Of a stretch of 43,632 nt of DNA, positions 15,547 to 37,545 are shown piece after piece (the first letter of the stretch is position 1; every line of letters starts with the position of its first letter). The notes under the pieces were generated by a model that did not search any database, had not been told where the DNA came from, and saw only the letters and a program-made list of their open reading frames with translations. A program made the translations under genes and the position numbers. The DNA is from Bacteroidaceae bacterium (lineage in GTDB: Bacteria > Bacteroidota > Bacteroidia > Bacteroidales > Bacteroidaceae): positions 1-43,632 of the forward strand of contig JAGAYF010000015.1 in NCBI GenBank assembly GCA_017940605.1. Direction: 5' to 3'.

Positions 15547-15650
15547 AGTTTTGTCGCCTTGTTTGAAAATTATAGTGCCTTGTAGGTGTGCTTTTTACGC
15601 CTTGTCTGAGAAATGAGAGGCCGCGTTCTCATTCTTTTGCGCCTTGCACA
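15547..15650 (+). repeat. Degenerate 21-22 bp tandem array A (five units)
   Basis: Five copies of a CGCCTTG-like core begin at 15555, 15576, 15598, 15619 (as GGCCGCG) and 15640, spaced 21, 22, 21 and 21 nt. Most are preceded by a T-run and a purine; the third, TTTTTACGCCTTGTCTGAGA, is the best match to the consensus TTTTrCGCCTTGTyTGAAA seen in three other gaps of this window. Stop codons fall in all useful frames, so it is not coding. It lies in the 491-nt gap between serine palmitoyltransferase and pfp, on the coding strand of pfp, about 220 bp before the pfp -7 box. The rest of the gap (15651-15860) shows no gene or clear structure. Confidence 0.75.
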
Positions 15651-15865
15651 GGAGGATTGACCTTGGAAATATCACGGAGGTGCTGAATCGCGGACGGAAT
15701 ATGGCATTCCCGGGCAGGAGGAACGGTGCTTGTGGGGCGGCTGATGAGGAAAATATAGGCTAAAGTAGGCGACGTGATGGATGGAAATGGAAAACTTTTT
15801 GACGACAACGGATTCCGCAGGGTGATTTCCTGGGCAAAACACGCGCTTGTTTGCTCAAAATAATG

Positions 15866-15873
15866 TAATTTTG
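15866..15873 (+). promoter_or_regulatory. -7 box of pfp
   Basis: TAATTTTG matches TAnnTTTG and stands 33 nt before the pfp ATG. TTG and TTTG occur at 15847-15853 but closer than the usual 19-21 nt. Confidence 0.6.
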
Positions 15874-15906
15874 CACAGACTTTGAATTTCTATATCTGGA
15901 TAAAAT

Positions 15907-17556
15907 ATGAATAAGAGTGCTTTACAAGTGGCAAGGGCAAACTATCAACCCAAATTGCCCAAAGGTTTGCAGGGAACGGTTACCCTGAAGGAAGGTGCGC
16001 CCACTCAGAGTGTGGGCGACCAGGATGAGATCAAAAATCTTTTTCCGAATACTTACGGACTGCCATTGGTGGAATTTGTCCCCAGTGCCGATGGTAAGAG
16101 CGATGCAACAAATACAAGCGTCAACGTGGGCGTGATCCTTTCCGGCGGCCAGGCTCCGGGCGGACACAACGTTATCAGTGGTTTGTTTGACGGCATCAAG
16201 AAACTGAACCCCAACAACAAGCTCTATGGATTCCTGCTGGGTCCCGGTGGCCTGGTGGATCACAAATACGTGGAACTGACGGCCGAAGTAATTGATGAGT
16301 ACCGCAATACGGGTGGTTTTGACATCATAGGGTCGGGCCGTACAAAATTGGAGGAAGTGGATCAGTTTGAGAGCGGCCTCAAAATTCTGAAGGAACTCAA
16401 CATCAACGCTGTTGTCATCATTGGCGGCGACGATTCCAACACCAATGCCTGCGTGCTGGCCGAGTACTACCTGGCTAAGGGTACGGGCGTACAGGTGATA
16501 GGCTGCCCCAAGACCATTGACGGCGACCTGAAGAATGACCAGATTGAGACCAGTTTCGGTTTTGACACGGCCACGAAGACTTATGCCGAATTGATTGGCA
16601 ATATTGAACGTGATGCCAACAGTGCCAAGAAGTATTGGCACTTCATTAAGCTGATGGGCCGCAGTGCTTCGCACATCGCATTGGAATGTGCCTTGGAGAC
16701 GCAGCCCAACATCTGTCTCATATCGGAGGAGATACAGGAAAAAGGCCAGACACTGGACGATGTGGTGACCTATATAGCCCAGGCTGTTGCCGACCGTGCT
16801 GCCGAGGGCAAGAACTACGGCGTGGCCCTCATTCCTGAAGGCCTGATTGAGTTCATTCCTGCCGTGAAGAAGCTGATTGCTGAGCTGAACGACCTGCTGT
16901 CTTCGCCGGAATATGCTGCCGACGCACCGGCCGACCGCATTGAGTGGCTGAACAACAAGCTTTCTGCCGAGAATGCCCCCGTCTTTGCCTCGCTGCCCCG
17001 TGCATTTGCCGAGCAGCTGACGGGCGAGCGCGACCCTCACGGCAATGTGCAGGTGTCATTGATTGAAACTGAGAAGCTGCTGTCGCAGATGGTGGCCAAG
17101 AAACTGGAGCAGTGGAAGGCTGAGGGCCGGTTCAAGGGTAAGTTTGCTGCGCAGCATCACTTCTTCGGCTATGAAGGCCGTTGCGCCGCTCCTTCCAACT
17201 TTGACGCCGACTATTGCTATTCGCTGGGCGTGAGCGCATCGGAACTGATTGCCCGCGGCAAGACGGGCTACATGGCCATCGTGAAGAACACGACCGCACC
17301 GGCCGACCAGTGGGTGGCAGGCGGTGTGCCCATCACCATGATGATGAACATGGAGCGTCGCAGCGGCAAGATGAAGCCCGTTATTCGCAAGGCGTTGGTG
17401 GAATTGGACGGCGCACCGTTCAAGACCTTTGCTTCGCAGCGCGATGAGTGGAAGAAGAACACCTGCTACCTCTATCCCGGACCCATTCAGTATTGGGGGC
17501 CGAGCGAAGTGTGTGACAAGACGACCGAGACACTGCGCCTGGAGCAGCAGAAATAA
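15907..17556 (+). CDS. pfp: Diphosphate--fructose-6-phosphate 1-phosphotransferase (PPi-dependent phosphofructokinase)
   Basis: The 549-residue length and sequence fit the long PPi-dependent phosphofructokinase group. [10 protein letters not shown] near residue 80 is the phosphate-binding loop. GGDDS at 173-177 has Asp in place of the Gly found in ATP enzymes, and PKTIDGD at 201-207 carries Lys202; both are established marks of PPi use. The enzyme reversibly makes fructose-1,6-bisphosphate from fructose-6-phosphate with pyrophosphate, saving ATP in an anaerobe and also serving gluconeogenesis. It has its own -7 box 33 nt upstream and lies downstream of repeat array A. A structured stretch separates it from the lysozyme gene. 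Confidence 0.95.
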
Positions 17557-17609
17557 AGAAATAGGGTGGTACGTCGCCTCAACGCAGGTGATGCACCGCC
17601 GATAGTACC

Positions 17610-17646
17610 GTAGAGACACCCCAAGCTTTTTCCAAGGTGTCTCTAC
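17610..17646 (+). terminator. Hairpin between pfp and the GH25 gene
   Basis: GTAGAGACACC (17610-17620) and GGTGTCTCTAC (17636-17646) form a perfect 11-bp stem with a 15-nt loop, followed by only TTT. It could be a weak or attenuating terminator rather than a full stop, because the next start is 13 nt later and no promoter is seen between. Confidence 0.55.
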
Positions 17647-17659
17647 TTTGGTTAAGAAA

Positions 17660-18511
17660 ATGGGACTGATTGACTTAAAACGTGCAGAATACAAATTGAG
17701 GCAGGTGGGCCATGCGTGGTTTCCCGTGCGTGCGCCCAAGTGGCTGCAGTGGCTCTTTGCTGTCCTGACGGTCATGGTGTATGGCTTTGTGTTCTATCAT
17801 TTTTTCGTCAGTCCCCTGTCCTTGAGGTGGAAAGGCCTGTTCGGCGATACCTTTCCGGCCGGCTATTCCATCCGTGGCATTGACATTTCCCACTATCAGG
17901 GGCGTATAGACTGGAAGAAGCTGAGACATGCATTGCTGAATGATGAACCAGTGAGCTTTGTCCTGATGAAAGCCACTGAGGGAACGGATTTTCTGGACGA
18001 ATATTTCCTCAGGAACATGGAGCAGGCCAAGGACGCGGGCTTTATCTGCGGTGCTTACCATTTTTTCCTTCCTTCAGAACCTGCCGAGGCGCAGGCAAAG
18101 TACTTTATTGAGAATGCGCAGCTGGAGGACGGCGATTTTCCGCCTGTGCTGGATTTCGAACACAGGGGAAGGCTGACCGCCCAGGGGGTGAGGGACGCCG
18201 CCCTTGCGTGGCTGAAAATCGTTGAGGCACACTACGGCGTGAAACCCATTATTTATACCAATTATAAGTTCAAATTGGCCTACTTAAGTGACACCCTGTT
18301 TGATGCGTATCCCTATTGGATTGCCCATTACTATGTGGACAGCCTCAAATATGAGGGAAAATGGAAACTGTGGCAGTACACGGACAACGGGCAGTTGGAC
18401 GGCATAACGGGGAGGGTGGACTTCAATCTCTATAATGGCTCCATGTACGACCTTCACAAGTTCTTGATTGGCCATAGGGAGGAAAATGAATTTTATGAAG
18501 AAGAAGAGTAA
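17660..18511 (+). CDS. Membrane-anchored GH25 lysozyme-like muramidase
   Basis: The 283-residue protein has a cytoplasmic basic N-terminus, one transmembrane helix at about 30-50, and a GH25 domain from about 72 to 270. GIDISHYQG holds Asp75, and LDFEH holds Asp165 and Glu167, the catalytic DxE pair of GH25; KATEG and WQYTDNGQLDG are further family signatures. It should cleave the MurNAc-GlcNAc bond of peptidoglycan from the periplasmic face of the inner membrane. The Glu-rich tail ends in a run of five acidic residues. The ATG at 17660 is chosen because the earlier in-frame TTG would fall inside the hairpin flank. rarA begins 18 nt later. Confidence 0.88.
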   Translation: MGLIDLKRAEYKLRQVGHAWFPVRAPKWLQWLFAVLTVMVYGFVFYHFFVSPLSLRWKGLFGDTFPAGYSIRGIDISHYQGRIDWKKLRHALLNDEPVSFVLMKATEGTDFLDEYFLRNMEQAKDAGFICGAYHFFLPSEPAEAQAKYFIENAQLEDGDFPPVLDFEHRGRLTAQGVRDAALAWLKIVEAHYGVKPIIYTNYKFKLAYLSDTLFDAYPYWIAHYYVDSLKYEGKWKLWQYTDNGQLDGITGRVDFNLYNGSMYDLHKFLIGHREENEFYEEEE

Positions 18512-18529
18512 CGTTAAAAATTGAAAGGT

Positions 18530-19804
18530 ATGGCAGCACCGTTGGCAGAACGCATGCGACCTACGTCGCTGGACGATTATATCGGGCAGAAACACCTGGT
18601 GGGCTGCGATGGCATCATCCGAAAGATGATAGAGTCGGGTCGTGTGTCCTCGTTCATCTTGTGGGGCCCGCCTGGCGTGGGCAAGACCACGCTGGCCAAT
18701 ATCGTTGCCCACCAGTTGAAAGTCCCTTTCTTCACATTAAGCGCAGTTAGCAGCGGTGTGAAGGATGTACGCGACGTGATAGAGAAGGCACAAAAGAGCC
18801 GTTTCTTCAACAGTGCCGCTCCTGTGCTGTTTATTGACGAAATCCACCGCTTCAACAAGTCGCAGCAGGATTCCCTCTTGGCGGCAGTGGAGAAAGGAGT
18901 GGTCACGCTGATTGGTGCAACAACGGAAAATCCGTCCTTTGAAGTCATTCGCCCGCTCTTGTCCCGATGCCAAGTCTATGTATTGAAGAGCTTGACGCAC
19001 GAAGACCTGCAGGAACTGCTGAAACGGGCCATAGAAAAGGACGAACAGCTGTCGCGGCGTACTGTAGAGGTGAGGGAAACCGACGCACTGTTTGCATATA
19101 GCGGTGGTGACGCGCGAAAGCTGCTGAACATCATTGACTTGATATCCTCGTCGGCCCAGGAGGACCAGCCCATTGTCTTTACAAATGAGATAGTGGCCAA
19201 GGAATTGCAGCAGAACCCACAAGCGTATGACAAGAACGGGGAAATGCACTACGACATCATCTCTGCTTTTATCAAGAGCATTCGCGGGAGCGACCCAGAT
19301 GCCGCCCTGTATTGGTTGGGCCGCATGGTGGCTGGCGGTGAAGACCCAAAATTTATTGCACGCAGGTTGGTAATTTCGGCAGCCGAGGATATAGGGTTGG
19401 CTAACCCGAATGCCCTGTTGCTGGCCAATGCAGCGTTCGACGCCGTGGATAAAATTGGCTGGCCAGAGGGCCGAATCCCATTGGCAGAGGCGACAGTGTA
19501 CCTGGCATCAAGTCCTAAGAGCAATTCGGCCTATCTAGGCATTGGGAAAGCGCTGCAAGTGGTTGACGAAACGGGCAATCAGCCTGTGCCGCTCCATCTT
19601 CGCAATGCGCCGACGGAGCTAATGGGAAAATTAGGCTACGGAAAGGACTACAAGTACCCGCATGATTTTGCGGGAAACTTTGTGGAGCAGCAATACTTGC
19701 CGGATCATTTGAAAAATCTGAGGTTGTGGAGCGCGCAGGACAATCCAACGGAGATGAAACTGCGCGAAAACCTGAGGAATAAGTGGAAAAACCGTGAATA
19801 TTAG
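18530..19804 (+). CDS. rarA: Replication-associated recombination protein A (AAA+ ATPase)
   Basis: A 424-residue AAA+ ATPase of the RarA/MgsA/WRNIP1 family, close to the 447 of E. coli RarA. Walker A GPPGVGKT is at 46-53, Walker B LFIDEIHRF near 104, and sensor 1 GATTENPSF follows. The C-terminal half (DIGLANPNAL, YLASSPKSNSAY, GYGKDYKYPHDF) is typical of RarA and absent from clamp-loader subunits. It acts at stalled replication forks in the cytosol. The first Met of the conserved N-terminus MAAPLAERMRP is used as start. The PcrA/UvrD helicase gene begins 9 nt after the stop. Confidence 0.95.
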   Translation: MAAPLAERMRPTSLDDYIGQKHLVGCDGIIRKMIESGRVSSFILWGPPGVGKTTLANIVAHQLKVPFFTLSAVSSGVKDVRDVIEKAQKSRFFNSAAPVLFIDEIHRFNKSQQDSLLAAVEKGVVTLIGATTENPSFEVIRPLLSRCQVYVLKSLTHEDLQELLKRAIEKDEQLSRRTVEVRETDALFAYSGGDARKLLNIIDLISSSAQEDQPIVFTNEIVAKELQQNPQAYDKNGEMHYDIISAFIKSIRGSDPDAALYWLGRMVAGGEDPKFIARRLVISAAEDIGLANPNALLLANAAFDAVDKIGWPEGRIPLAEATVYLASSPKSNSAYLGIGKALQVVDETGNQPVPLHLRNAPTELMGKLGYGKDYKYPHDFAGNFVEQQYLPDHLKNLRLWSAQDNPTEMKLRENLRNKWKNREY

Positions 19805-19813
19805 GCTTACCGA

Positions 19814-22114
19814 ATGACTGATTTAGGCTTTCTTGACAACTTGAACCCCTCCCAACGCGCCGCTGTTGAGTATGTGGACGGTCCTTCCCTGGTAATTGCA
19901 GGGGCAGGCTCTGGTAAGACGATGGTCCTTACGTATAAGATAGCTTACCTGCTGAAATTGGGATTCAAACCCTATACAATCCTTGCGCTGACCTTTACAA
20001 ACAAGGCCGCAAGGGAGATGAAGGAGCGCGTGGCCCAATTGGTGAACATCTATGAGGCGAGTTCGCTGCGCATGGGGACGTTCCATTCCATTTTCAACAG
20101 GATATTGCGTCGCGAGGCAGGTGCAATCGGTTTTTCTCCCAACTATACGATATACCAACCCTCCGATTCCCGCAGCTTGGTCAAGAGCATCGTGAAGGAA
20201 ATGGGCCTGGACGACAAGGTATACAAGCCTCAGGTGATTTGCAACCGTATATCGGAGGCCAAGAACGCCCTTGTCTTCCCCAATGAGTACTTGGCGAGCC
20301 AAGAAATCAGGCGGCATGACAGCTCTGCCAATATTCCACACGCAGGAGAGGTGTATATGGCCTATTTTCACCGTTGCCATCAGGCCAATGCCATGGATTT
20401 TGACGACCTGCTGCTGTATACCTATTTCTTGTTTGAGAAATATCCCGAGATTTGCAGCCATTATGCCCACTTGTTCCAGTTTGTCCTTGTCGATGAGTAC
20501 CAAGATACCAACTATGCCCAGCATAAGATTCTTGGCCAGCTGACATCCGTAAACAAAAAGATATGTGTCGTGGGCGATGACGCGCAAAGCATCTACAGTT
20601 TTCGCGGAGCGAAAATCGAGAACATCCTGCGTTTTACCCAGGAGTATGAAAACGCACGTCTGTTCAAGTTGGAATTGAACTACCGCTCCACACAGAACAT
20701 CGTTGGGGCGGCCAACAGTCTGATCAAGCGGAATCAGCGGCAGATACCCAAGAGTATCTACAGTGAAAACGAGAAAGGCCGTCCCCTGTTGCTGCGCCGT
20801 GCATACAGCGATGTGGAAGAGGCCGAGATCGTCTGTAATGAGATTCAGAAATCCTGCCGCCACGGCAACATTTCCTACAGCCAGGTGGCCGTACTGTACA
20901 GAACGAATGCCCAGAGCCGCATATTCGAGGAATCGTTGAGGAAACACGGCATCCCATATCGCATATACGGCGGTTTTTCCTTTTACGACCAGAAAGTCAT
21001 CAAGGATGTGCTGGCCTATTTCCGCTTGATTGTCAATCCCAACGACGAAGAAGCGTTCAAGCGTATCGTAAATTATCCTACGCGCGGGTTGGGCGATGTC
21101 ACCATAGGGAAAGTCCTTGCAGCCGCCTCGGAAAACAATGTCAGTGTCTGGGAAGTGATGGGCAACCTGGCTACATATAATTTGCAGGTCAATGCCGGCA
21201 CGCTGAAGAAACTGGAAAGTTTCTGTCATCTTATATCAAGTTTTTCCCAGCAGCAGGTTGATGCCTACGAATTGGGCCAATTGGTGTTGAAAGAGTCCGG
21301 AATCATGGCCGAGGCCTATCGGGACAATTCCGTTGAGGGCAAGGAAATGCGCGACAACCTGTCAGAACTCCTGAACGGCATGAATTCCTTCGTCGAGATG
21401 CAGCGCGAGACGGGCGATGAGGAGAGAATATCGCTGTCCGACTATCTGAGCGAGGTGGCCCTGCTGTCCGACACCGACGATCCCAAGACCGAAAACAAGG
21501 ACATGGTGACGCTGATGACCGTCCATGCCTCCAAGGGACTGGAGTTCGACATGGTCTTCATCGTAGGCATGGAGGAAGAGCTCTTTCCCAACATGCAGAC
21601 GCTCTATTCCCAGCAGGAACTGGAGGAAGAGCGCCGGTTGTTCTACGTTGCCATTACCCGTGCCAAGAAGCAATGCTTTCTCAGTTGCGCCAAGTCGAGA
21701 TTCCGCTTCGGAAAGGTGGAGTTTTTCCAGCCCAGCCGTTTCCTTACGGAGATAGACCGCCAATACCTGCAGGACGACAAGCCAGCCGCCTCTGCAGCGC
21801 CTTTCGACAGCAGGCCCAAGGCTTCCCAGCCCAACAAATGGCAGGAACTTTTTGCCTCACGCCCAGCCGAGAAACCCATGCGCAGGGTAGTGGCCTCCAA
21901 CCACGGCAGCGATGAGGAAGAACCCCGTTTAGACTCCGTCCTGATCAACGGAATGCGATGCACGGTGGGGAGCAGGGTCGAGCATGCCAAGTTTGGCATT
22001 GGCGAAGTCGTTGAACTGTGCGGCCCTGCCGATGCCTGCAAGGCCACGGTACGCTTCCGGAACGTGGGAGAGAAGAAATTGTTGTTGAAATATGCCAAGT
22101 TAACCGTCTTGTAA
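19814..22114 (+). CDS. pcrA: ATP-dependent DNA helicase, UvrD/PcrA family
   Basis: A 766-residue superfamily 1A helicase with all motifs in order: Q-motif LNPSQRAAV, motif I GAGSGKT (30-36), II VDEYQDTN, III VVGDDAQSIYSFRGA, IV NYRST, V TVHASKGLEFD and VI VAITRAKK. The length fits PcrA/UvrD. The C-terminal 70 residues (GSRVEHAKFGIGEVV) form the small Tudor-like domain that binds RNA polymerase in PcrA. It unwinds DNA 3'-5' in excision repair and in clearing replication blocks. With rarA directly upstream the two form a replication-repair pair. PcrA and UvrD names are used interchangeably for this family in Bacteroidetes. Confidence 0.95.
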   Translation: MTDLGFLDNLNPSQRAAVEYVDGPSLVIAGAGSGKTMVLTYKIAYLLKLGFKPYTILALTFTNKAAREMKERVAQLVNIYEASSLRMGTFHSIFNRILRREAGAIGFSPNYTIYQPSDSRSLVKSIVKEMGLDDKVYKPQVICNRISEAKNALVFPNEYLASQEIRRHDSSANIPHAGEVYMAYFHRCHQANAMDFDDLLLYTYFLFEKYPEICSHYAHLFQFVLVDEYQDTNYAQHKILGQLTSVNKKICVVGDDAQSIYSFRGAKIENILRFTQEYENARLFKLELNYRSTQNIVGAANSLIKRNQRQIPKSIYSENEKGRPLLLRRAYSDVEEAEIVCNEIQKSCRHGNISYSQVAVLYRTNAQSRIFEESLRKHGIPYRIYGGFSFYDQKVIKDVLAYFRLIVNPNDEEAFKRIVNYPTRGLGDVTIGKVLAAASENNVSVWEVMGNLATYNLQVNAGTLKKLESFCHLISSFSQQQVDAYELGQLVLKESGIMAEAYRDNSVEGKEMRDNLSELLNGMNSFVEMQRETGDEERISLSDYLSEVALLSDTDDPKTENKDMVTLMTVHASKGLEFDMVFIVGMEEELFPNMQTLYSQQELEEERRLFYVAITRAKKQCFLSCAKSRFRFGKVEFFQPSRFLTEIDRQYLQDDKPAASAAPFDSRPKASQPNKWQELFASRPAEKPMRRVVASNHGSDEEEPRLDSVLINGMRCTVGSRVEHAKFGIGEVVELCGPADACKATVRFRNVGEKKLLLKYAKLTVL

Positions 22115-22141
22115 AGCACTAAAAAATCATAAACCCCATTC

Positions 22142-23578
22142 ATGTCAAGAAAAAAGAACCTTCCGTTACTGGAAAACGTTACCATAACCGACTTTGCTGC
22201 CGAGGGCAAAGCCTTGGCGCGCATCGATGGCATGGTCATCTTTGTTCCCTTTGTCGTGCCAGGCGACGTGGTCGATTTGCAGGTCATTAAGAAAAAGCAC
22301 AGCTACATGGAGGCCAAGGCCGTGAAGTTCCATCAATACTCCCCATGGCGCGTGCAGCCCTTTTGCCCTCATTTCTCCGTGTGCGGCGGCTGCAAGTGGC
22401 AGACGTTGGCCTATGCGAAGCAGTTGGAGTACAAACAGCAGCAGGTGGTGGATGCGCTGGAGCGAATAGGCAAGATAGAGATTCCCCAGGTCAGGCCCAT
22501 CATGGGCGGTGAGCACCAGCAGGAGTACCGCAACAAACTGGAGTTCAGTTTCAGCAACAAGCGTTGGCTGACCGAGGCTGAGATAGCACAGGAGGTCCGC
22601 TATGACGACATGAATGCCGTGGGATTCCACATACCCGGTGCTTTCGACAAAGTACTGGACATTACGGAGTGCCGGTTGATGGGGAATTTGCAAAACCGCG
22701 TGCGCAATGGTCTGCGCCGCTTCGCCGTTCAGAACGGCTTGTCCTTTTTCGACCTGCGTGCCCAGACTGGATTGCTGCGCAACCTGATGTTCCGCACGTC
22801 CAATTCGGGCGAGACCATGCTGCTCATCCAGTTCCACATGGAGGATGCCGGGCAGGAGCAGCAGGCGCAGGCGGTATTGAAGTACCTGGACGAGACATAT
22901 CCCGAGATAACCACGATTGTGTGGGTGAATAACCTGAAGTGCAATGACACGGTGGGCGATTTGGACCTCCAGGTATACAAAGGACAGGGATTTGTGTACG
23001 AAATGATGGAGGACCTGCGGTTCAAGGTGGGGCCCAAGAGCTTCTACCAAACCAACAACGAGCAGGCCTACAACCTGTACAAGGCGGTGCGCGACTACTG
23101 TGGCCTGACGGGCAGCGAACTGGTGTATGACCTATACACCGGCACGGGAACGATAGCCAATTTCGTAGCTCGCCAATGCCGCAAGGTGATAGGCATAGAG
23201 TATGTGCCCGAAGCCATTGAGGATGCCAAGGAAAATGCCCTGCTCAACGGCATAGGAAACGCTGAATTCCATGCCGGCGATATGAAGGACGTGCTGAACG
23301 ACCAGTTCATAGCCGACAACGGCCGTCCCGACGTGCTGATTACCGACCCGCCCCGCGTGGGAATGCACAAGGACGTGGTCGACGTCATCCTCAAGGCGCG
23401 CCCGCAGCGGGTGGTATACGTGAGCTGCAACCCCTCTACGCAGGCACGCGACGTGGCCCTCATGAACGAACTGTACAGGGTGGTCTCCATCCAGCCCGTG
23501 GACATGTTTCCCCATACCCAGCACATTGAAAACGTGCTGCTCATGGAACTGAGGGACGAGCCGCTGACAAAAGACTGA
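22142..23578 (+). CDS. rlmD: 23S rRNA (uracil-C5)-methyltransferase RlmD/RumA family
   Basis: A 478-residue SAM-dependent RNA methyltransferase. An N-terminal TRAM domain (about residues 10-65) is followed by 4Fe-4S ligands C75, C81, C84 and, at a distance, C177, as in E. coli RumA. The Rossmann part shows YDLYTGTGTIANF for SAM binding, DPPRVGMH, and the catalytic Cys in VSCNPST. It methylates a uracil of 23S rRNA, in E. coli U1939; the exact site here is inferred, since related RlmC and TrmA enzymes differ little. The gene lies 27 nt after the helicase and 16 nt before an unknown gene. Confidence 0.92.
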   Translation: MSRKKNLPLLENVTITDFAAEGKALARIDGMVIFVPFVVPGDVVDLQVIKKKHSYMEAKAVKFHQYSPWRVQPFCPHFSVCGGCKWQTLAYAKQLEYKQQQVVDALERIGKIEIPQVRPIMGGEHQQEYRNKLEFSFSNKRWLTEAEIAQEVRYDDMNAVGFHIPGAFDKVLDITECRLMGNLQNRVRNGLRRFAVQNGLSFFDLRAQTGLLRNLMFRTSNSGETMLLIQFHMEDAGQEQQAQAVLKYLDETYPEITTIVWVNNLKCNDTVGDLDLQVYKGQGFVYEMMEDLRFKVGPKSFYQTNNEQAYNLYKAVRDYCGLTGSELVYDLYTGTGTIANFVARQCRKVIGIEYVPEAIEDAKENALLNGIGNAEFHAGDMKDVLNDQFIADNGRPDVLITDPPRVGMHKDVVDVILKARPQRVVYVSCNPSTQARDVALMNELYRVVSIQPVDMFPHTQHIENVLLMELRDEPLTKD

Positions 23579-23594
23579 CGCAACGCCTTCTGTC

Positions 23595-24308
23595 ATGCAC
23601 ACCACCCATCAGTACAATTCCTCGCTGGCCAGGCGCATGCAGCCCTTCATCGAAAAAAACGATTGGCAGGGCTTGGTGCAGTGCCTGGACCGCATGACCC
23701 ACTCGGAGTTCCGCACGGCGGGGCTGATGCTCAGCCAGAACATCCTGCCTGCCCTGGACGAGGAGCGCTTCTGGGCCTGTTTTCAGGTGCTCTATGGCAC
23801 AAGCCCCAAGGCCTGGCTGGTAACGCTGCTGAAATCGGCGGTGGACATGTATGCCGACGGTCGGTTGCAATTTGGCGGCGCGGTATTTGACGGCATGTGT
23901 GCGCTGATTGTCGACGAAGAGAGGAAAATAGACGAGCACAAGCTGTTGCAGATGTTGCTGCCCGTGCTCAAGACACCGCAGGAGGTGGTGCAGCTGTTGG
24001 CGCAACTGCACCTGGATGACTCGCAGCGGGCTATCCTGTACTTGCTGGAGCAGGACACGCTGCCGTGCAGCTATGTGCTGTTCCAACAACTGAGGCGGCT
24101 GGACCATGAGCCCGAACGACTGTCGCTCTACTGCGCCAAGCTGCTGCAGAAGGGCAGCGGGCGCGCGTTCAACCTGGTAAGCATTGTCAAGAACTATTTT
24201 GACCTGCCCCAGGTGAGGGGCACGTTTTCGCTGAAGATACCGCCCTATGAATTGTCGCGGTTGGAAACATCCTATGACGAGTTCCTGCGCATCATGAATC
24301 GCATTTGA
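23595..24308 (+). CDS. Uncharacterised helical protein
   Basis: I do not recognise this 237-residue protein. It has no signal peptide, transmembrane helix or cysteine cluster. The sequence is Leu- and Gln-rich and almost entirely helix-forming, with successive amphipathic segments such as LLKSAVDMY, LLQMLLPVLKTPQEVVQLLAQL and LLEQDTLPCSYVLFQQL, suggesting a soluble helical-repeat scaffold. GC-rich codon use equals that of its neighbours, and the reading frame is tightly placed 16 nt after rlmD, so it is very probably a real gene of the same transcript. Downstream there is no clear terminator before the array-containing gap. Confidence 0.75.
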   Translation: MHTTHQYNSSLARRMQPFIEKNDWQGLVQCLDRMTHSEFRTAGLMLSQNILPALDEERFWACFQVLYGTSPKAWLVTLLKSAVDMYADGRLQFGGAVFDGMCALIVDEERKIDEHKLLQMLLPVLKTPQEVVQLLAQLHLDDSQRAILYLLEQDTLPCSYVLFQQLRRLDHEPERLSLYCAKLLQKGSGRAFNLVSIVKNYFDLPQVRGTFSLKIPPYELSRLETSYDEFLRIMNRI

Positions 24309-24393: not shown

Positions 24394-24482
24394 GGTCTTT
24401 TACGCCTTGTCTGAAATTTCTTGCGCCCCGTTTACCGCCCTTTTACGCCTTGTCGGTCCGCCTTTTGCGCCTTTCCGTTTCA
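24394..24482 (+). repeat. Degenerate 21-22 bp tandem array B (four units)
   Basis: Cores begin at 24403 (CGCCTTG), 24424 (CGCCCCG), 24446 (CGCCTTG) and 24468 (CGCCTTT), spaced 21, 22 and 22 nt, each preceded by a T-rich run. The first unit, CTTTTACGCCTTGTCTGAAA, is the consensus itself. The array lies in the 347-nt gap before yceD, on its coding strand, about 155 bp before the yceD -7 box. The remainder of the gap has an imperfect hairpin at 24501-24523 (GGGTT/AACCC with GCCC/GGGC) and no gene. Confidence 0.75.
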
Positions 24483-29078: not shown

Positions 29079-29125
29079 TTAAGGATTTTTATCATTCCAT
29101 TTAGAAGCATTTGTCTGCCAATGCG

Positions 29126-29133: not shown

Positions 29134-29146
29134 TAGACCAAATAAA

Positions 29147-30397: not shown

Positions 30398-30433
30398 ATG
30401 ACCGGAAAAAGCGGGTATGTATGGAAAAATGAT

Positions 30434-30441
30434 TATTTTTG
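30434..30441 (+). promoter_or_regulatory. -7 box before tRNA-Gly
   Basis: TATTTTTG matches TAnnTTTG and lies 16 nt before the mature tRNA 5' end. No clear -33 element is seen. Confidence 0.55.
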
Positions 30442-30457
30442 CACCATCAAACCCCAT

Positions 30458-30530
30458 GCGATAGTAGCTCAGTTGGTAGAGCATTGGCTTCCCAAGCCGA
30501 GGGTCGCGAGTTCGAGTCTCGTCTGTCGCT
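30458..30530 (+). tRNA. tRNA-Gly (anticodon CCC)
   Basis: The 73 nt fold into a full cloverleaf. The acceptor stem is GCGATAG with CTGTCGC (one G-U pair), the D arm GCTC/GAGC, the anticodon arm TTGGC/GCCGA with loop TTCCCAA giving anticodon CCC, and the T arm GCGAG/CTCGT with loop TTCGAGT. The discriminator base is T, the identity base for bacterial glycine tRNAs. CCA is not encoded. Confidence 0.95.
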
Positions 30531-30749
30531 CAAAATGGAAGAACAACAATCATCAAAATTATTAGTCCGACAGAAGCGATCCAAGGTTTTGGGTGGAAAT
30601 CATATTGGATGGTTTTCATGGGATTTTATTACCACATCAAAATCCTGCGTCCGCATCAGTATGCGTCGGAAAGGCTGATGGCTATCGCCCATTCCCCTCA
30701 TTTCTGCCTATGATGTCGTGTGAAAATGGTGGGTTGGTCCTTCATCGGA

Positions 30750-30852
30750 ATTTTACGCCTTGTTGAACGGGTTTTCAGGCCTTGCATGAAATTTTTCAGG
30801 CCGCGTTTGCGGGGCTTTCGCGCCTTGCGCCATCGCTTTTACGCCTGTTTTG
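30750..30852 (+). repeat. Degenerate 21-22 bp tandem array C (five units)
   Basis: Cores begin at 30756 (CGCCTTG), 30778 (GGCCTTG), 30799 (GGCCGCG), 30821 (CGCCTTG) and 30842 (CGCCTGT), spaced 22, 21, 22 and 21 nt. Each is preceded by 3-5 T. This is the most regular of the four arrays. It lies in the 480-nt gap between tRNA-Gly and the BspA-like gene, on that gene's coding strand, about 110 bp before its -7 box. The rest of 30531-30935 shows no credible gene. Confidence 0.78.
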
Positions 30853-30935
30853 TGTGCGCTGTCCTGACGTGCCTTCCTTCTTGGGGCTCGTTGGTGGCGG
30901 CGTGTGCCCCGCGTGTGTCTTCATGCGGCGGAATG

Positions 30936-30967
30936 TTTGGATATTACACATAATTTTCGTAATTTTG
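30936..30967 (+). promoter_or_regulatory. Promoter of the BspA-like gene
   Basis: TTTG at 30936-30939, 20 nt, then TAATTTTG at 30960-30967. The transcript would start near 30974, which makes an in-frame ATG at 30978 unlikely and supports the start at 31011. Confidence 0.82.
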
Positions 30968-31010
30968 TGCGTGCTAAATGTTGAATCATCTGATAAGAAA
31001 CACTGATTGT

Positions 31011-31826
31011 ATGATGAAGAATAGAGTGGTGGGCCTGCTGAGTGCCGTTGTGCTCAGTGCCATGTTTTCGGTTCGTGTGGGTGCGTTTGTCGTGGGCGGC
31101 ATCAACTACGAGGTGCTGAATGACACCTCCGTGGCGGTCATATCGCTGTTGGAAGGTCACTATGAGGGCCACGTTGTCATTCCCGAACACATCCGGCACG
31201 GGGGCACGACCTACACAGTGACGACCATCAAGTCGCTTGCCTTCTGTGAGTGCACCGAAATGCTGAGCATCCAGTTTCCTGCCACGCTTACCTCCATCGG
31301 GGGGTACACCTTTGAGCAATGCACGGGCCTGCGCAAGCTGGTCTTCCCCGATGCGCTGGAGACCATCGGCGGCTACGCCTTCAATGAGTGCGCCTGCCTG
31401 GAGGAAGTGCATTTTGGGCGCGGCCTCAAGACGTTGGGCAATGAGTCTTTCTCCAACTGCCTGTCGTTGCGTGCGGCTGTCCTTCCTGACGGGCTCAAGT
31501 CCGTTGGGCACTATGCCTTTGCGGGATGCCGCAGCTTGCAGGAGGCCATCCTGCCGCCGTCCGTGATAGCCCTGGGCCGCTATGCTTTCTATGGTTGCCC
31601 GCGGTTGGCCCGTGTGGTCCTGCCTGCTTCGCTCCATCGGTTTCAGGAGGGTACTTTCCAGGGATGCACCACCCTGCAGGCTGTGCAAGTGCCGTATCGC
31701 CGGCCGCTTGAGGTGATCAGTAATACGTTTGATGCCGCGCGTGTCACCATCCATGTCCCCTCAGGGTGCAGGGAGGCCTATGAAAAAGCCCCCGTTTGGA
31801 AAGATTTTAGGGTGCTGGAAGAATAA
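31011..31826 (+). CDS. BspA-like leucine-rich repeat secreted protein
   Basis: The 271-residue protein has a signal peptide (about residues 1-26) and six LRR_5 (BspA/TpLRR) repeats of about 23 residues, with the pattern AFxxCxxLxxVxLPxxLxxIG, for example YAFNECACLEEVHFGRGLKT and YAFYGCPRLARVVLPASL. Repeats of this kind occur in surface proteins of Prevotella, Bacteroides and Treponema and often mediate adhesion. No C-terminal sorting domain or lipobox is present, so how it stays on the cell, if it does, is unclear. Two ATGs stand side by side; the first is used. Confidence 0.85.
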   Translation: MMKNRVVGLLSAVVLSAMFSVRVGAFVVGGINYEVLNDTSVAVISLLEGHYEGHVVIPEHIRHGGTTYTVTTIKSLAFCECTEMLSIQFPATLTSIGGYTFEQCTGLRKLVFPDALETIGGYAFNECACLEEVHFGRGLKTLGNESFSNCLSLRAAVLPDGLKSVGHYAFAGCRSLQEAILPPSVIALGRYAFYGCPRLARVVLPASLHRFQEGTFQGCTTLQAVQVPYRRPLEVISNTFDAARVTIHVPSGCREAYEKAPVWKDFRVLEE

Positions 31827-32006
31827 AACGTCTTTCCCTGATAATTTTAAGTAACTCGGGATTATTTTTATAAATGACTTTCTGTCTCAAAAATGACGGA
31901 AAGCCAATTGTTCCACTTGCGGTATAATGTGTAGATGTCCCGCTTGGATGATGAACTTGGCGGGGGAGGGCGAGTACCTGTCCTGAGTAATAGAAAAAGT
32001 GGGGGT

Positions 32007-34610
32007 TCAGGGTTCCATGACCAGGCGGAAGCCGTTGTTAAGAAGCATGCTTCCTGTGGCATCGTAGCTGCGGTAGGTGGTACGGCAACTGTTGTTTTCG
32101 CCCAACCAGCAGCCGCCGCGCAGGCATCGGTAGCCGCCGTCGGATGGTCCTTGCGGATTGTGCTGCGCCTGGGTGGGGTATCTGCCATACCAGTCGGAAC
32201 ACCATTCAAAAACATTGCCGCTCATGTCGTAGAGGCCCAGTTCGTTGGGCTGCAATTGGGCTACCTCATGGGTGCTGCCGCCCGATGAGAAGACATTCCA
32301 TGCCACATCGGCCACGTTGTCGCTGCCACTGTATCGGTAGCCACGCGAGTGGCGGCCGCCGCGTGCTGCATATTCCCATTCGGCCTCGGTGGGCAGGCGG
32401 AATTTGCGGCCCGTGAGTGCGCTCAACTTTTGCATAAACTCATCAATGGAGGCAGGAAGTACGCGTTCAATGGGAAAATTGCCGCCCACACGGTTGTTGG
32501 CGGTGTTGGCTTTCTTTCCCATGACGGCTATCCACAGTGCTTGTGTTACCTCGGTCTGACCAATGTAGTATTCGTTAAGGGTAACCTGATGGACAGGGCG
32601 CTCAGAGGCATAGCCGTCTTCGCGTCCCATGGCAAAAGTGCCGCCCTCGACCTTGATCATCTTGAAAGGTACGCCCTCTATCTCAAATGATTCAAAGGGA
32701 ATGTCGGGAACGACTTCCGTTTTTTGCCCCGAGGCCGTTTGGGTGTAAGGCGGAGTGAAGTAGTGGTGGCAGTTGCGCCCCACGTTGGTTAGCTGGTTGT
32801 TGGGAATGCCGTGGCGACCGGATCCTTGCTCCATCAGTGTCTTGAGGTCGGCAAAGTAATGGGTGTAGACGGCGCGCGGCAGGGCGTGATGGCGGTGGCA
32901 AACGCTGGCGGCAAGGCCTACGACTTCGCCCATCATGGCTGTGGTGCGCATGACGCGCACAGAGCCAAGGGCAATGTGGGTGACGCTGATGTCGCGGCCG
33001 GCCATAAAGAGGTTGTCAATCTTCTTCGTGTAAAAGCAGCGGTATGGAATGGGGCTGAGGGGTACTTCTTCCTGTACGCAGATGCTCTTGAACTCGCGAC
33101 CAGGGAAGAACTTGCTGTTCTCAGGCTCGGGATAGTGCAGGTCAATCGTCCATGAGGAGGTGGCCGTCGCATCATCGTAGATTTTATTCTCTATGATGTC
33201 GGTCTCTGTCATGACATAGTCGCCCACCAGACGGCGCGACTCACGCTTGCCACTGACATGGGATACCCAGCCCAGCTGCAAGTTGGCATATTTTTGTTTA
33301 TCGGCGCAATGGTTCTTGAGATAGGACCAATTGGCGTAGATGACCAACATGCCGTAATCGCGTATTTGCTCAGCTTCGCTGATTTGGTCTTTCATCATGC
33401 CCGTCTCCCACGTCCACATTCCCTTGGTGACCTGTTGAACGCTTTCCTCCGTGAAGTTGCATCCGTAATTGAATTCAGGGAAAGGCACAGGCTGCGCTTT
33501 TTTCTCGGAATTCCACTGCAAGGAAGCTCCCAGCACCATGCGGTCGCGTTGGTCGGGTGCGCTTTGTTCGCCAAAGTCGGATTTGCTCTCGCGTCCTACC
33601 ATGTATTCTGCCCCTGCCATAACCCCAATGTTGCCGTCGCCAGTGCAGTCGGCAAAGAGAGGGGCGTTGAAGCGCGTGAGAATACCATTTTCAATGCCAC
33701 GCCCAATGACAGACTTGATGTGAAGACCCTCTTGTTCTACGCGAATGATGCGTGTCAGCGTAAAAAGGGAGATGTTGCTCTCGGCCTTGACGATATCCAT
33801 CTTTCGGTCGTCGGCATAATATTCCTCGGGCATGGCATTTCCTTTGCGTGTGGGGGCAAATTCCTTGAGCAAGTTGCCCAAATTGGGGTATGGCTCGCAA
33901 GTGATGGAGCCTCCCAACTGCACACGAACCTCACTGGAATTATTGCCGCCCAGTACGGCGCGGTCTTGTATGAGTGCTACCTTGAGACCTTGGCGTGCTG
34001 CGGCCACGGCAGCGCATATGCCAGAATATCCACCGCCCACGACGACAAAATCATATGTTCCTCCTTCCTGTATGTCCTCATAATGGGGAATGAGACGGCG
34101 GCGTAGGACCTCCATGTCCTCTTTGTCCGTGTCGAGTTTGGTCAGTGGCTTTGTGGAAAGCAGGATGGCATCGGCGCGGCCCTCGAATCCCGTGAGATCA
34201 TGGAGGGCAAGGGTGACATGGCCCTTGTTGAGCCGTTTTTTGCCAGCCAGTTGCCATTGCCATGTCTGTCCTGTTGCTCCCAAGGTGGTGGCGAGTGGTT
34301 CGCCGTTGACCTTCAATTGGAAACGACCCGCTCCCTCTTCATTGGAAAACGGGGCGGTCCAGTTGTATGTGCGCACATAGATGTAATAGATACCCTTGGC
34401 GGGAATGTCAACGGCGGTTTGTGCGTCGGCAACGGGGATGCCTTGTCCATGAGCCAGCAGGTAAGGCGAACCCATTTGGTCGACAAATTGCTGGTCGACG
34501 GTCCATCCTCCCTTGTCGCGGAAGGCCTCGGTTTCAACAAGCAGGCTTCTGGCAGTGCCAGTGAGTGAAAAGAAAACTGCCGTGGCGGCAAGGAGGAGGG
34601 ACGGTTTCAT
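32007..34610 (-). CDS. Secreted FAD-dependent oxidoreductase fused to a SUMF1/FGE-like domain
   Basis: An 867-residue secreted protein with three parts. After a signal peptide (1-21) comes a beta-rich domain (about 22-155) resembling the carbohydrate/xanthan-lyase-associated modules of this family. Next is an FAD-dependent oxidoreductase of the FAD_oxidored type (about 185-620) with dinucleotide motif VVGGGYSG at 190-197 and GGNNSSEVR near 221. The C-terminal 220 residues are a formylglycine-generating-enzyme (SUMF1) fold: EGGTFAMG, QTEVTQALW, RLPTEAEWEYAARGG, YDMSGNVFEWCSDW, NNGFRLV. The FGE active-site cysteine pair does not seem to be present: only SCRTTYRS remains in that region. So the domain may not make formylglycine. 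It lies 25 nt after asd and may share its transcript. Confidence 0.85.
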   Translation of the reverse strand: MKPSLLLAATAVFFSLTGTARSLLVETEAFRDKGGWTVDQQFVDQMGSPYLLAHGQGIPVADAQTAVDIPAKGIYYIYVRTYNWTAPFSNEEGAGRFQLKVNGEPLATTLGATGQTWQWQLAGKKRLNKGHVTLALHDLTGFEGRADAILLSTKPLTKLDTDKEDMEVLRRRLIPHYEDIQEGGTYDFVVVGGGYSGICAAVAAARQGLKVALIQDRAVLGGNNSSEVRVQLGGSITCEPYPNLGNLLKEFAPTRKGNAMPEEYYADDRKMDIVKAESNISLFTLTRIIRVEQEGLHIKSVIGRGIENGILTRFNAPLFADCTGDGNIGVMAGAEYMVGRESKSDFGEQSAPDQRDRMVLGASLQWNSEKKAQPVPFPEFNYGCNFTEESVQQVTKGMWTWETGMMKDQISEAEQIRDYGMLVIYANWSYLKNHCADKQKYANLQLGWVSHVSGKRESRRLVGDYVMTETDIIENKIYDDATATSSWTIDLHYPEPENSKFFPGREFKSICVQEEVPLSPIPYRCFYTKKIDNLFMAGRDISVTHIALGSVRVMRTTAMMGEVVGLAASVCHRHHALPRAVYTHYFADLKTLMEQGSGRHGIPNNQLTNVGRNCHHYFTPPYTQTASGQKTEVVPDIPFESFEIEGVPFKMIKVEGGTFAMGREDGYASERPVHQVTLNEYYIGQTEVTQALWIAVMGKKANTANNRVGGNFPIERVLPASIDEFMQKLSALTGRKFRLPTEAEWEYAARGGRHSRGYRYSGSDNVADVAWNVFSSGGSTHEVAQLQPNELGLYDMSGNVFEWCSDWYGRYPTQAQHNPQGPSDGGYRCLRGGCWLGENNSCRTTYRSYDATGSMLLNNGFRLVMEP

Positions 34611-34635
34611 GTTGTTAACTATATAAGGAAAAAGG

Positions 34636-35649
34636 TTACTTGATGTTGCCTACTTGATGGAGATACTCTGCTATTTGGACGGCATTGAGAGCCGCTCCCT
34701 TGCGAATTTGGTCGCCCGTGAGCCACAATGTAATGCCGTTGTCGTTGGCAAGGTCTTTCCTGACGCGGCCGACATAGACATCATCTTTTCCAGCGGAATG
34801 GAGCGGCATGGGATAGACGTACTGCTGCGGATCATCCTGCAACGTTACGCCCGGGGCCTGGGCCAAAGCGGCACGAACTTCCTCGACCGTGAGCGGTTTC
34901 TCGGTCTCAACCCACACGCTTTCGCTGTGGCTGCGCAAGGAAGACACCCTGACGCAGGTGGCACTGGTCCGCACGTCGCTGTGCATTATCTTACGCGTCT
35001 CGTTGAACATCTTCATTTCCTCCTTTGTGTAGTCATTGGGGGTCATGACGTCGATTTGGGGAATGACGTTATAGGCTAACTGGTGGGGAAATTTCTGAAT
35101 GGTCTGCACGTCGCCTGTTTCCAGCAATTCCTTGTATTGTTGTTGCAATTCGGCCATGGCTGCCGCGCCGGCACCGCTGGCACTCTGATAGCTGGAGACG
35201 TGAATGCGCTTGATGTGGCTCAGCTTTTCAATGGGCTGCAGGACTACCACCATCATGATGGTCGTACAGTTGGGGTTGGCAATGATTCCGCGCGGACGGT
35301 TCAAGGCATCCTGGGCATTGCACTCGGGAACGACCAGGGGAACGTTCTCTTCCATGCGCCATGCACTGCTGTTGTCTATCATGACTGCGCCATAGCGCGT
35401 GATGTCTTCGGCGAATTCCTTGGATGCGCTGCCGCCGGCGGAGACGAAGGCGACGTCAATGTCCTTGAAATCGTCGCCGTGCTGCAATAGTTTGACGGTA
35501 TATTCTTTGCCCTTGAAGGTATAAGTCTTTCCAGCGCTGCGGGAAGACCCGAAGAGCGTGAGTTGGTCAATGGGGAAATTGCGCTCGTCAAGGATGCGCA
35601 TGAATTCTTGTCCTACGGCGCCGCTTGCGCCTACGATTGCTACGTTCAT
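34636..35649 (-). CDS. asd: Aspartate-semialdehyde dehydrogenase
   Basis: A 337-residue enzyme that reduces aspartyl-4-phosphate to aspartate-4-semialdehyde with NADPH, the branch to lysine/diaminopimelate, threonine and methionine. The N-terminal loop [11 protein letters not shown] is at 6-16, the catalytic Cys128 is in NPNCTT, and [10 protein letters not shown] and the C-terminal [13 protein letters not shown] are family signatures. The first Met of the Rossmann start ([10 protein letters not shown]) is used; a longer in-frame reading would run through the -7 box. The FAD/SUMF1 fusion gene follows 25 nt downstream. Confidence 0.96.
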
Positions 35650-35685
35650 AATGCTTGAATACTTGAAATTTGTTCTATTCAAGTG

Positions 35686-35693
35686 CAAAATTA
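35686..35693 (-). promoter_or_regulatory. -7 box of asd
   Basis: On the - strand this reads TAATTTTG, 36 nt before the asd ATG. No -33 element stands at the usual distance. Confidence 0.6.
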
Positions 35694-35755
35694 GAACATT
35701 TTGGTAACATTCAGCCCCTCGGCAGAGCAAAAATGCCCAAAAGGAAGCCGATGTT

Positions 35756-36496
35756 TCAGAAAAAGTCGTACTTAATGCCGAAGCAAAGACTCAGAATGTC
35801 GCCTAATTTCAAGTAGGAGTTGGGAATGGCGCTTACCAAGTACAGGTCGTTGGTGCTTAGCTCATAGTAGAGCGAAATGCTGCTGATGCGCCGCCGCTTT
35901 TGCATGGGAATCTGGTAGCGAAAGCGTTCGCCTACAAAGACATTGCTCCTGACACTTGTGGAAAAGCCATAGTAGCGCTTGGGGTATTTGGAGGGTTGGC
36001 GCGACCAGAACTCCTCGCCAAATACAGTGTTGAAGAACAAGCCGCAGGAAAGCGGCTCAAACTGCCAATTTCCGTGCAACGTAATGCGAAAGGGAATGTA
36101 TCCCTGCTTGATGGTCATGGTAAGTTTGCTGGTACGTGTGTCATAGGCGGGCAGGAATCCGAACATGAGGTCGGTTTCCCAAATGCGCCGCTGCTTTCCG
36201 TAGTGCCACCCCATGCCTGCCGACAGCAGGCCGATGCTGCCGGCGTACTGCAGCTTGACCTGCGAAGGGATGAGCCCATGCCAGAAACGATTGTAGCGTT
36301 CAATGCGCTTGCGATAGATTTCGTTGAGTAGCAGCACCGAGTCACTGTCATGATTGAGGTCATCGGCTGCCCATGCTGCGGCCGTACCCATGCCGTGCGA
36401 GGGCAATGCCAGGCTCTCGCCACGTTCCTGCGCAATGGCAGCAGTGGTCAACGGCAGCAGAAGTAAGATGAGGATGCTATATCTTGACAGCTTCAT
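35756..36496 (-). CDS. Predicted outer-membrane beta-barrel protein
   Basis: A 246-residue protein with a signal peptide (cleaved near AAIAQ, residue 21-22). From residue 80 it alternates polar and hydrophobic residues with many Tyr/Phe/Trp, as in a small barrel ([53 protein letters not shown]). It ends in FGIKYDFF, and a terminal Phe is typical of outer-membrane proteins. I do not recognise the family. Its ATG lies 20 nt inside the end of the metallophosphoesterase gene, so the two are translationally coupled and probably work at the envelope together. An earlier in-frame ATG further inside that gene is rejected because it precedes the signal peptide. Confidence 0.7.
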
Positions 36497-37304
36497 AAGT
36501 GTAGGTGTCGCGTGTGATGGTGAATACCAGATACGTGCGTTCCTTGGCGCAGGCACATTGGTAGTAAGGAACACCGCCCTCGAATGGGTATTCAATGGTC
36601 GTGTGGTGGTTGTGTCCGCAGATGCAGAACTTCAAATTGGGGAACTGGTTCAGGCTGTACTCAAAATAGTCCAATACGTTGTTGTTGAACTGCTCGCTGC
36701 CGGGTTTGGCATGCATGGCCACCACGGTCTGTACCGCGTTGGGGCAGAGGTTGTGCAAGTCAGTCTTGATGTATTCAAAATCGGGTACGGCAATGGAGTA
36801 GTCATATTCAAAGGCATTGGTGTTGAGGCACAGGAAATGCACGAAACCCGCGTCGAAACTGAAGTTGACGTCGCCGTACAGCTGTTGATACACGTCCTCG
36901 CCCGTACCCAGGCAGTCGTGGTTGCCGATAAGGCAGACATAGGGCATGGACAGCTTTTGGTAGATGTTGCGCATCCACAGGAATTCCTTGGTAAGGCCAA
37001 AGTCGGTATGGTCGCCGCAGTGGATGACAAAGTCAATGTCACCCCGTTGGTTGATGGCTTTTATTAAGTCTTCTGTATCATCGTACCACCGTTGCGTATC
37101 TGAAATTTCGGCAAAGCGTATGGTATCCTTGTCGGCGCACAATGCCTCTATCTTACGGATGTTTTCTTGGGTCAGATGCCTTGCGCCGTCCAGGCGTCCG
37201 TCATAGGGGTGGTACTCTATGAGGTCGCATGAGGTCACCCCAATGCAGATGAAGAGGATGGCCAAGAGAAACCTGGGATGTAGAGGGTAAGGCACTCGTT
37301 TCAT
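36477..37304 (-). CDS. Metallophosphoesterase lipoprotein
   Basis: A 275-residue lipoprotein with lipobox GVTSC and lipidated Cys26. The mature part is a calcineurin-like phosphoesterase: EISDTQRW (the DxH of most members is DxQ here), IHCGDHTD, LIGNHD, AMHAKP and CGHNHHT provide the metal ligands of a two-metal centre. It hydrolyses phosphate esters outside the cytosol; the substrate is unknown. The Met opening the signal sequence (MKRVPYP) is used rather than one six codons earlier. A TAACTTTG box begins just upstream, and repeat array D lies further upstream in the same orientation. The predicted outer-membrane gene overlaps its end by 20 nt. Confidence 0.83.
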   Translation of the reverse strand: MKRVPYPLHPRFLLAILFICIGVTSCDLIEYHPYDGRLDGARHLTQENIRKIEALCADKDTIRFAEISDTQRWYDDTEDLIKAINQRGDIDFVIHCGDHTDFGLTKEFLWMRNIYQKLSMPYVCLIGNHDCLGTGEDVYQQLYGDVNFSFDAGFVHFLCLNTNAFEYDYSIAVPDFEYIKTDLHNLCPNAVQTVVAMHAKPGSEQFNNNVLDYFEYSLNQFPNLKFCICGHNHHTTIEYPFEGGVPYYQCACAKERTYLVFTITRDTYTYEAVKI

Positions 37305-37309
37305 GGTTA

Positions 37310-37317
37310 CAAAGTTA
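37310..37317 (-). promoter_or_regulatory. -7 box very close to the metallophosphoesterase start
   Basis: On the - strand this reads TAACTTTG, a full match to TAnnTTTG, ending 5 nt before the ATG at 37304. If used, the transcript would begin at or next to the start codon (leaderless). No -33 element is visible, so a chance match is possible. Confidence 0.4.
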
Positions 37318-37457
37318 CGCATTGATTTTCTAATATCATTGTGTTTCAGTGAAGTTTAAGTGGTCTGTTTGGAACTTTTTCTGTTCCTTTTTTCTTTTTC
37401 CTCTATTCAGATGGTGCGTTCCTTACGACATGGAAGGAAATCCTGTTGCCCATGTTC

Positions 37458-37545
37458 CCTCTACGGGCAAGGCGCAAAAACTGCTCCAATGCGGTCCAAT
37501 AAATTTCCGACAAGGCGTGCCGTTTCGGCGTATGGGGCGTATAAA
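37458..37545 (-). repeat. Degenerate 21-22 bp tandem array D (four units, - strand)
   Basis: Read on the - strand, cores begin at 37539 (CGCCCCA), 37517 (CGCCTTG), 37493 (CGCATTG) and 37474 (CGCCTTG), spaced 22, 24 and 19 nt. The second is followed by TCGGAAATTT, close to TCTGAAATTT in array B. It is less regular than the other three. It sits in the 582-nt divergent gap between the metallophosphoesterase and the MATE gene, oriented towards the former. A forward CGCCTTG at 37602-37608 stands alone. Elsewhere the gap has CCAACCAT/ATGGTTGG (37705-37712, 37738-37745) as a loose inverted repeat and no gene. Confidence 0.6.

Follow-up and report, generated by a model that had tools for sequence, protein, structure and literature searches.

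Intergenic arrays with a two-turn period in a Bacteroidaceae genome, and recurrence of the period with other sequences in its relatives

The window analysed here, a contig of 43,632 nucleotides (JAGAYF010000015.1, our C48), belongs to assembly GCA_017940605.1 of a Bacteroidaceae bacterium (designated G000; 2.01 Mb, 73% complete), whose GTDB family presumably includes Bacteroides and Phocaeicola. Its large intergenic gaps carry arrays of a degenerate 19-base motif, beginning TTTTRCGCC, that recurs every 21-22 bp. The initial annotation had reported such arrays in four gaps, and sequence and profile searches located all four:

15550 to 15652, plus strand: array 1, five units (TTTTGTCGCCTTG, TAGTGCCTTG, TTTTACGCCTTG, GAGGCCGCGTT, TTTTGCGCCTTG); profile match at 15569-15652, 47.5 bits
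24365 to 24481, plus strand: array 2, profile match of 70.9 bits, preceding a yceD-like gene (YceD match below the curated cut-off)
30746 to 30852, plus strand: array 3, five units spaced 22-21-22-21; profile match at 30746-30846, 75.4 bits
37461 to 37559, minus strand: array 4, profile match of 62.9 bits, the most degenerate of the four

With a set of open reading frames (ORFs) picked by hand from the ORF list, all four window gaps longer than 300 bp (491, 344, 580 and 528 bp) carry an array, as annotated, and the four other gaps of at least 150 bp (180, 185, 240 and 240 bp) carry none. At up to three mismatches the 19-base motif has three matches in the window alone, where 0.08 would be expected and none of 100 shuffles reaches three. 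Its sole exact copy in the assembly, at 24398-24416, belongs to array 2, with further units then following at 21-22 bp. Array 1 lies about 135 bp 3′ of the stop codon of a serine palmitoyltransferase gene, behind a terminator-like hairpin. Array 3 is flanked by a tRNA gene on one side and by a BspA-type leucine-rich-repeat gene on the other, and array 4 lies between diverging metallophosphoesterase and MATE transporter genes. The serine palmitoyltransferase gene directly before array 1 (14213-15415) encodes the CFB-type form of this sphingolipid enzyme (681 bits, cut-off 640); the BspA-type gene directly after array 3 spans 30978-31826.

For the rest of the assembly we analysed the window together with 20 stretches (395,550 bases) taken from contigs with motif matches, 439 kb in total, using a home-made and crude gene caller. 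The motif is enriched outside the window, with 90 matches at up to three mismatches in G000 against one for the reversed pattern. An iterated profile gave 56 matches, merged to 52 arrays, in the 439 kb, and no array in the same DNA reversed. Forty of the 90 unit matches fall in the analysed DNA, 37 of them inside arrays. Scaling by unit matches gives an estimate of about 117 arrays for the assembly. The choice of match-bearing contigs biases upward the share of occupied gaps given below.

The degenerate tandem arrays first described are real, and they turn out to be copies of one composite element rather than loose repeats. The element is about 124 bp long, with 3-6 units per array in a largely fixed order (TTTTACGCCTTGT..., TTTTACGCCTTGTCYGAAA, TTTTTCAGGCCGCATTGGCC.., TTTTGCGCCTTGT.., TTTTGCGCC), a typical spacing pattern of 22-21-22-21/22 and a distinct unit ...CAGGCCGCATTGGCC among them. 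Its copies in G000 are strongly diverged and their boundaries are not sharp; the start shows only a weak inverted unit, and no flank is common to the copies beyond the ~124 bp. The expected excess of 21-22 bp spacings is pronounced: 165 of 187 successive spacings take one of these values (107 at 22 bp and 58 at 21 bp), with two each at 20 and 23 bp.

The period is kept more strictly than the sequence, in agreement with the initial annotation. An alignment of 38 copies over 66 columns holds 609 substitutions and two gap cells, the latter a lower bound because the rows are the better-scoring copies of the 52 and the profile favours copies free of indels. The distance from the GCC of unit 2 to that of unit 3 is 21 bp in 35/35 scorable rows, and to that of unit 4 it is 43 bp in 33/34. 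Identity to the consensus varies from 34 to 100% per column (χ² 945, 104 degrees of freedom); the GCC columns reach 93-100% in all five units and most linker columns only 34-64%. From the uneven columns, the fixed GCC distances and the two gap cells, it follows that length is constrained even where sequence is free. The original proposal of sites two turns apart on the same helix face is thus well supported in G000, and related species show the geometry too, in different sequences (below).

None of the 52 arrays lies inside a reliable gene. The statement that every large gap has an array does not extend to the genome: of 79 analysed gaps between 250 and 1000 bp long, 46 are occupied, namely 31/47 tandem, 10/14 convergent and 5/18 divergent gaps. 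Occupancy is lower in divergent gaps than in the others (5/18 vs 41/61; Fisher p 0.006). In tandem gaps the 20 sense arrays start at a median of 115 bp past the upstream stop codon, and the distance to the stop is comparable for the 13 antisense arrays. A simple scan found a terminator-like hairpin upstream of 8/52 arrays, which therefore lie behind a terminator, and on the other side of 5/52. RNAalifold found no consensus base pair in the 38 aligned copies. The near-even strand and the absence of a consensus RNA pair point to an array that acts as double-stranded DNA and not as RNA.

The sequence of the element is private to this genome. A 35-base composite pattern has 28 matches in G000 and none in the 40 other genomes of the comparison set, 18 of which are of the same genus. 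The single unit at up to two mismatches occurs 56 times in G000 and 0-2 times in each of these 18 congeners, at the control level (0-3). Carriage by viruses is rejected on the lack of any exact match to two patterns in viral contigs. By FabH, the nearest named records are RUG376, RUG11179 and RUG11829 (89-90% identity; the prefix presumably denotes rumen genomes). At the locus of array 2 in the three nearest named relatives (L142-L144) the element profile found nothing, and the gap, 347 bp in G000, is shorter at the two loci where the upstream gene could be fixed (L142, 96 bp; L144, 182 bp). Positional conservation of array 2 is rejected by these three loci.

The period itself was sought in other genomes by a self-match scan of ORF-free gaps over lags of 10-60, and by a lag test in a 44-column and a 24-column form, in which significance means 0 of 100 simulated first-order Markov sequences. 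In the scan the top lag is 21 or 22 bp in 7/10 genomes (G000, G005, G008, G010, G012, G020 and G021), and the sequences behind it differ in each genome; the basis is thin in G010 (5 gaps), G020 (3) and G021 (4), and lag 21 in G012 stems partly from 7-bp microsatellites. This lag is not on top in G017, G018 and G019, which means little given the low sensitivity of the lag test: of 117 gaps in G000, only 9 (44-column) or 7 (24-column) are flagged at 21-23 bp, against the 52 arrays of the profile. In the 44-column form, with the 24-column result in brackets, 21-23 bp accounts for 9/12 (7/9) of the significant gaps of G000, and for 14/25 (8/19) in six congeners (177 gaps). The 72 gaps from four further genera of the family gave 3/4 (3/6), and the 405 gaps from 80 named fabH loci gave 35/57 (28/47), many of the latter being orthologous, non-independent gaps and several loci coming from one named species. 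The corresponding figures are 1/3 (1/1) in the order outside the family (60 gaps), 1/5 (1/5) in the class outside the order (69 gaps) and 0/1 in both forms in Escherichia coli (61 gaps). Related genomes besides G000 thus total 52/86 significant arrays at 21-23 bp against 2/9 outside (39/72 against 2/7 in the 24-column form). Per gap this is 52/654 against 2/190, the control outside the relatives comprising these 190 gaps only (Fisher p 1.5e-4). Lag 22 alone accounts for 29/86 against 1/9, and an earlier scan over lags 12-60 agrees with the 21-23 bp excess. Other multiples of 3 top 27/86 significant gaps, some of them plainly rpmF. Convergent gaps are enriched here too: within the 654 gaps, arrays occupy 18/97 convergent gaps and 38/557 of the remainder, and the enrichment has a Fisher p of 0.0004, computed with 19 and 40 arrays, a count that includes three from outside the 654 gaps.

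Units across genomes are mostly unrelated in sequence, as illustrated by GGAACNTACRTTCC in RUG11179 (the assembly of both G005 and G047, by coordinates), ACAAGGTCGGACCTTGT in G008, GCTACCCGAGGGGGTAGCAGTC in L214 and GTAACCAAAG in Xylanibacter brevis. Clustering by sequence divides the 70 arrays into 58 groups; this number is too high, since the arrays of G000 are split into several and those of G005 into three. Among the 59 arrays from other genomes, which include the three from outside the 654 gaps, 23 have a near-palindromic unit (score of at least 6.5; our own count, with no null computed). The RUG11179 motif has 188 and 183 matches on the two strands of its own genome, partly in the same arrays, with none in the control; seven other genomes have at most one match each. 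In Prevotella communis E15-14 a 22-bp pattern has 22 matches against 6 in the control, about five of them plain microsatellites by eye. The L214 pattern has 6 matches at 2 loci in its Bacteroides bin and none in four other Bacteroides genomes. With two loci each in X. brevis and for L214 and hundreds of matches in RUG11179, copy number therefore varies widely by species. X. brevis and RUI122 share an orthologous array in DNA that is 94% identical; the length difference between the two copies is exactly one 22-bp unit, and the substitutions fall outside the GTAACCAAAG core. Arrays were mapped around position 12867 of L208 in X. brevis ATCC 19188 and in the gap 17064-18382 of L185 in P. communis E15-14.

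Several other repeats were noted along the way. Of the 11 gaps of G000 flagged by either form of the lag test, only seven hold the element described here. Two others (window 9421 and L019 17925) hold a second repeat of G000, symmetric and resembling a bidirectional terminator (CTCGGGGAGTTTTTT..AAAAAAGTCCCCGAG beside TTAGTCCGAGTAATTT), at window positions 9291-9530 (core ~9438-9490) and L019 ~17925-18030, both in convergent gaps. One more flagged gap is L025 6524. The last, at L021 16204-16310, holds a second, unrelated 22-bp array (GGAAGCACTCC with free linker), about 100 bp from a TTTTRCGCC array at 16003-16105, so that the same period occurs with another sequence in the same genome. The G008 family (L064-L076), judged by eye, is a repeat of ~200-260 bp whose outer ends are rich in A+T (TTTATTATATAAAA) and enclose a palindromic core with a 21-bp period. 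In G012 (L078-L087) several gaps hold 7-bp microsatellites of the AACCTATAACCAATA and GTTAGGAATTAGGA types, together with several different 21-bp arrays.

We hold, with moderate confidence, that the arrays are rows of sites for a putative DNA-binding protein, phased along a single face of the DNA, and that the site sequence is replaced over time whereas its geometry persists. The two-turn spacing, the free linkers, the fixed core, the missing RNA fold and the place behind genes argue for such a row; the related genomes that keep the period with other sequences, and the orthologous array of X. brevis and RUI122 that varies by one whole unit, add to the case. Each array would then present 3-6 double-stranded sites to a fairly abundant protein, whose neighbouring copies would lie on the same DNA face, able to touch and perhaps to bind cooperatively. 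The ~124-bp element would have been copied to roughly 120 places, for the most part immediately behind genes and not near promoters; there an occupied array could set a boundary of a nucleoid or supercoiling domain or block read-through. Between species the site would change fast, presumably together with the protein, with the two-turn geometry kept. Several observations weigh against this reading. The strands in tandem gaps are near even (20 sense, 13 antisense), and the alignment is drawn from copies that the profile favours. Lag 21 is a multiple of both 3 and 7, and some gaps look coding or microsatellite (L085, L204); the exact paired core occurs at only two loci in X. brevis, and likewise in RUI122. 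The array is absent at the one orthologous place examined, so its presence at a particular site is dispensable in the long run. No binding protein was found among the two candidate families examined, RAYT and HU-HIG, neither of which fits, so that the nucleoid-associated or regulatory protein of the initial annotation stands as a putative partner. HU-HIG was matched in all 41 genomes and also in E. coli and other controls, and its paralogues do not track the arrays (13 in G000, 3 and 4 in array-bearing G005 and G008); as the binding family it has no clean fit. Finally, recognition by a transposase could impose the same constraint.

That last point leads to a rival which we regard as possible but doubtful, namely a non-autonomous mobile repeat, similar to a miniature inverted-repeat transposable element (MITE) or a bacterial interspersed mosaic element (BIME), with internal minisatellite units. 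Insertion behind genes would do least harm, and the conserved letters would be recognised by a transposase in trans. The shared order of units over ~124 bp without a common flank, a family private to its species, the empty profile at L142-L144 and the shorter array 2 gap in L142 and L144 are as such a repeat would have them; so are, by eye, the A+T-rich outer ends of the ~200-260 bp G008 family and inverted ends in arrays or families of G005, G008 and G010, and excerpts of PMC4596501 supply a precedent in BrickBuilt, a 23-nt tandem repeat within a MITE. Decay of a mobile repeat should be even, however, whereas columns range from 34 to 100% with the length held, and a plain mobile repeat leaves this uneven conservation and the recurrence of 21-23 bp in many unrelated families unexplained. 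The candidate agents of spread also count against it. PF01797 (RAYT) is present in 19/41 genomes, with none in G000, G005, G008, G020 and G021 but one each in array-bearing G010 and G012; RAYT-driven spread in the manner of repetitive extragenic palindromes (REPs) is not required, as array-bearing genomes without RAYT exist. One IS4/IS5-type (DDE_Tnp_1) transposase was found in the assembly, and the 2.1 kb around it contain no unit, which makes it an unlikely parent (other transposase classes were not searched). The fixed unit order itself shows that the element spread by copying, and a mobile origin is therefore compatible with phased protein sites.

We weighed two further explanations. The arrays might act at the RNA level, as reserve terminators or stabilisers of 3′ ends, which would suit their distance of ~115 bp from stop codons, the enrichment of convergent gaps in other species too and the near-palindromic units in 23/59 other-genome arrays. 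We consider this improbable: the 38 arrays share no common fold, orientation to the gene is near even, an upstream terminator-like hairpin puts 8/52 arrays behind the terminator (5/52 have one on the other side), and Rfam gave only a tRNA in the window. That phased T-tracts curve the DNA by themselves, no specific protein being involved, appears highly improbable. The units of G000 do begin with TTTT at 21-22 bp intervals, but their best-conserved letters are GCC and not the T-tract, and an A-tract occurs in the consensus unit of 27/59 other-genome arrays and is absent from 32. Bending by phased tracts, which the initial annotation had offered as an alternative, is rejected as a general rule by these counts.

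A broader and only tentative extension of the protein-site reading is that Prevotella- and Bacteroides-like relatives share a fast-evolving DNA-binding protein that assembles along one side of two-turn arrays behind genes, with a private site in each species and the geometry alone inherited. If this is true, a major group of gut bacteria has chromosome-wide phased sites that sequence searches miss, each species spelling them differently. The arrays would offer a direct handle on chromosome organisation or on the insulation of neighbouring genes in these bacteria, and a rare natural case of inherited spacing without inherited sequence.

Some known systems share part of these properties. Plasmid iterons consist of ~20-22 bp sites in a row, occupied on a single DNA face; across plasmids their sequences are unrelated and their spacing is similar, and they sit at one replication origin beside the rep gene. 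The tandem sites at helical spacing are alike, whereas the arrays here occur at 52 places in 439 kb, in the window beside ordinary genes. REP and BIME elements, the nearest working analogue, sit between genes and near gene ends; the likeness lies in many intergenic copies (52 arrays, none in reliable genes) away from divergent promoters. Excerpts of PMC2817692 describe them as high-copy, regularly spaced units of alternating orientation that bind gyrase, IHF and Pol I, and REP units appear in excerpts of PMC3733652 as palindromes of 20-40 bp tagged GTAG or CGTC. Our element does not qualify as a member on three counts, palindrome, tag and RAYT: its unit measures ~22 bp and is non-palindromic (seven TTTTRCGCC-type units of G000 scored; no consensus pairing), the profile consensus lacks GTAG, CGTC and their complements, and no RAYT was found in the 73% complete assembly of G000 or in the 99% complete assemblies of G005 and G008. 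DNA uptake sequence dialects, in excerpts of PMC3630211, are also species-private short motifs of high copy number; here 37/40 unit matches stand in phased arrays and not as single sites.

The nearest named element is BrickBuilt of Porphyromonas gingivalis. Excerpts of PMC4596501 give it as 19 copies of 23-nt direct repeats, always intergenic, dispersed and species-limited, with 1 to 22.8 repeats within a leader and tail and inverted ends of the IS5 type; they also note 41-, 23- and 22-nt repeats in strain W83. On that description it resembles our element in its direct repeats and its intergenic, dispersed, species-limited distribution. It differs in that the element here has an estimated ~117 copies with 3-6 units in fixed order, in which no IS5-type ends were found. 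Among the literature matches listed, none describes the wider pattern and BrickBuilt alone is similar, which is weak proof of absence. Compared by description, BrickBuilt may be one instance of the wider pattern. Should the relatives indeed share one system, that system would parallel, in bacteria, satellite DNA that evolves together with the protein bound to it.

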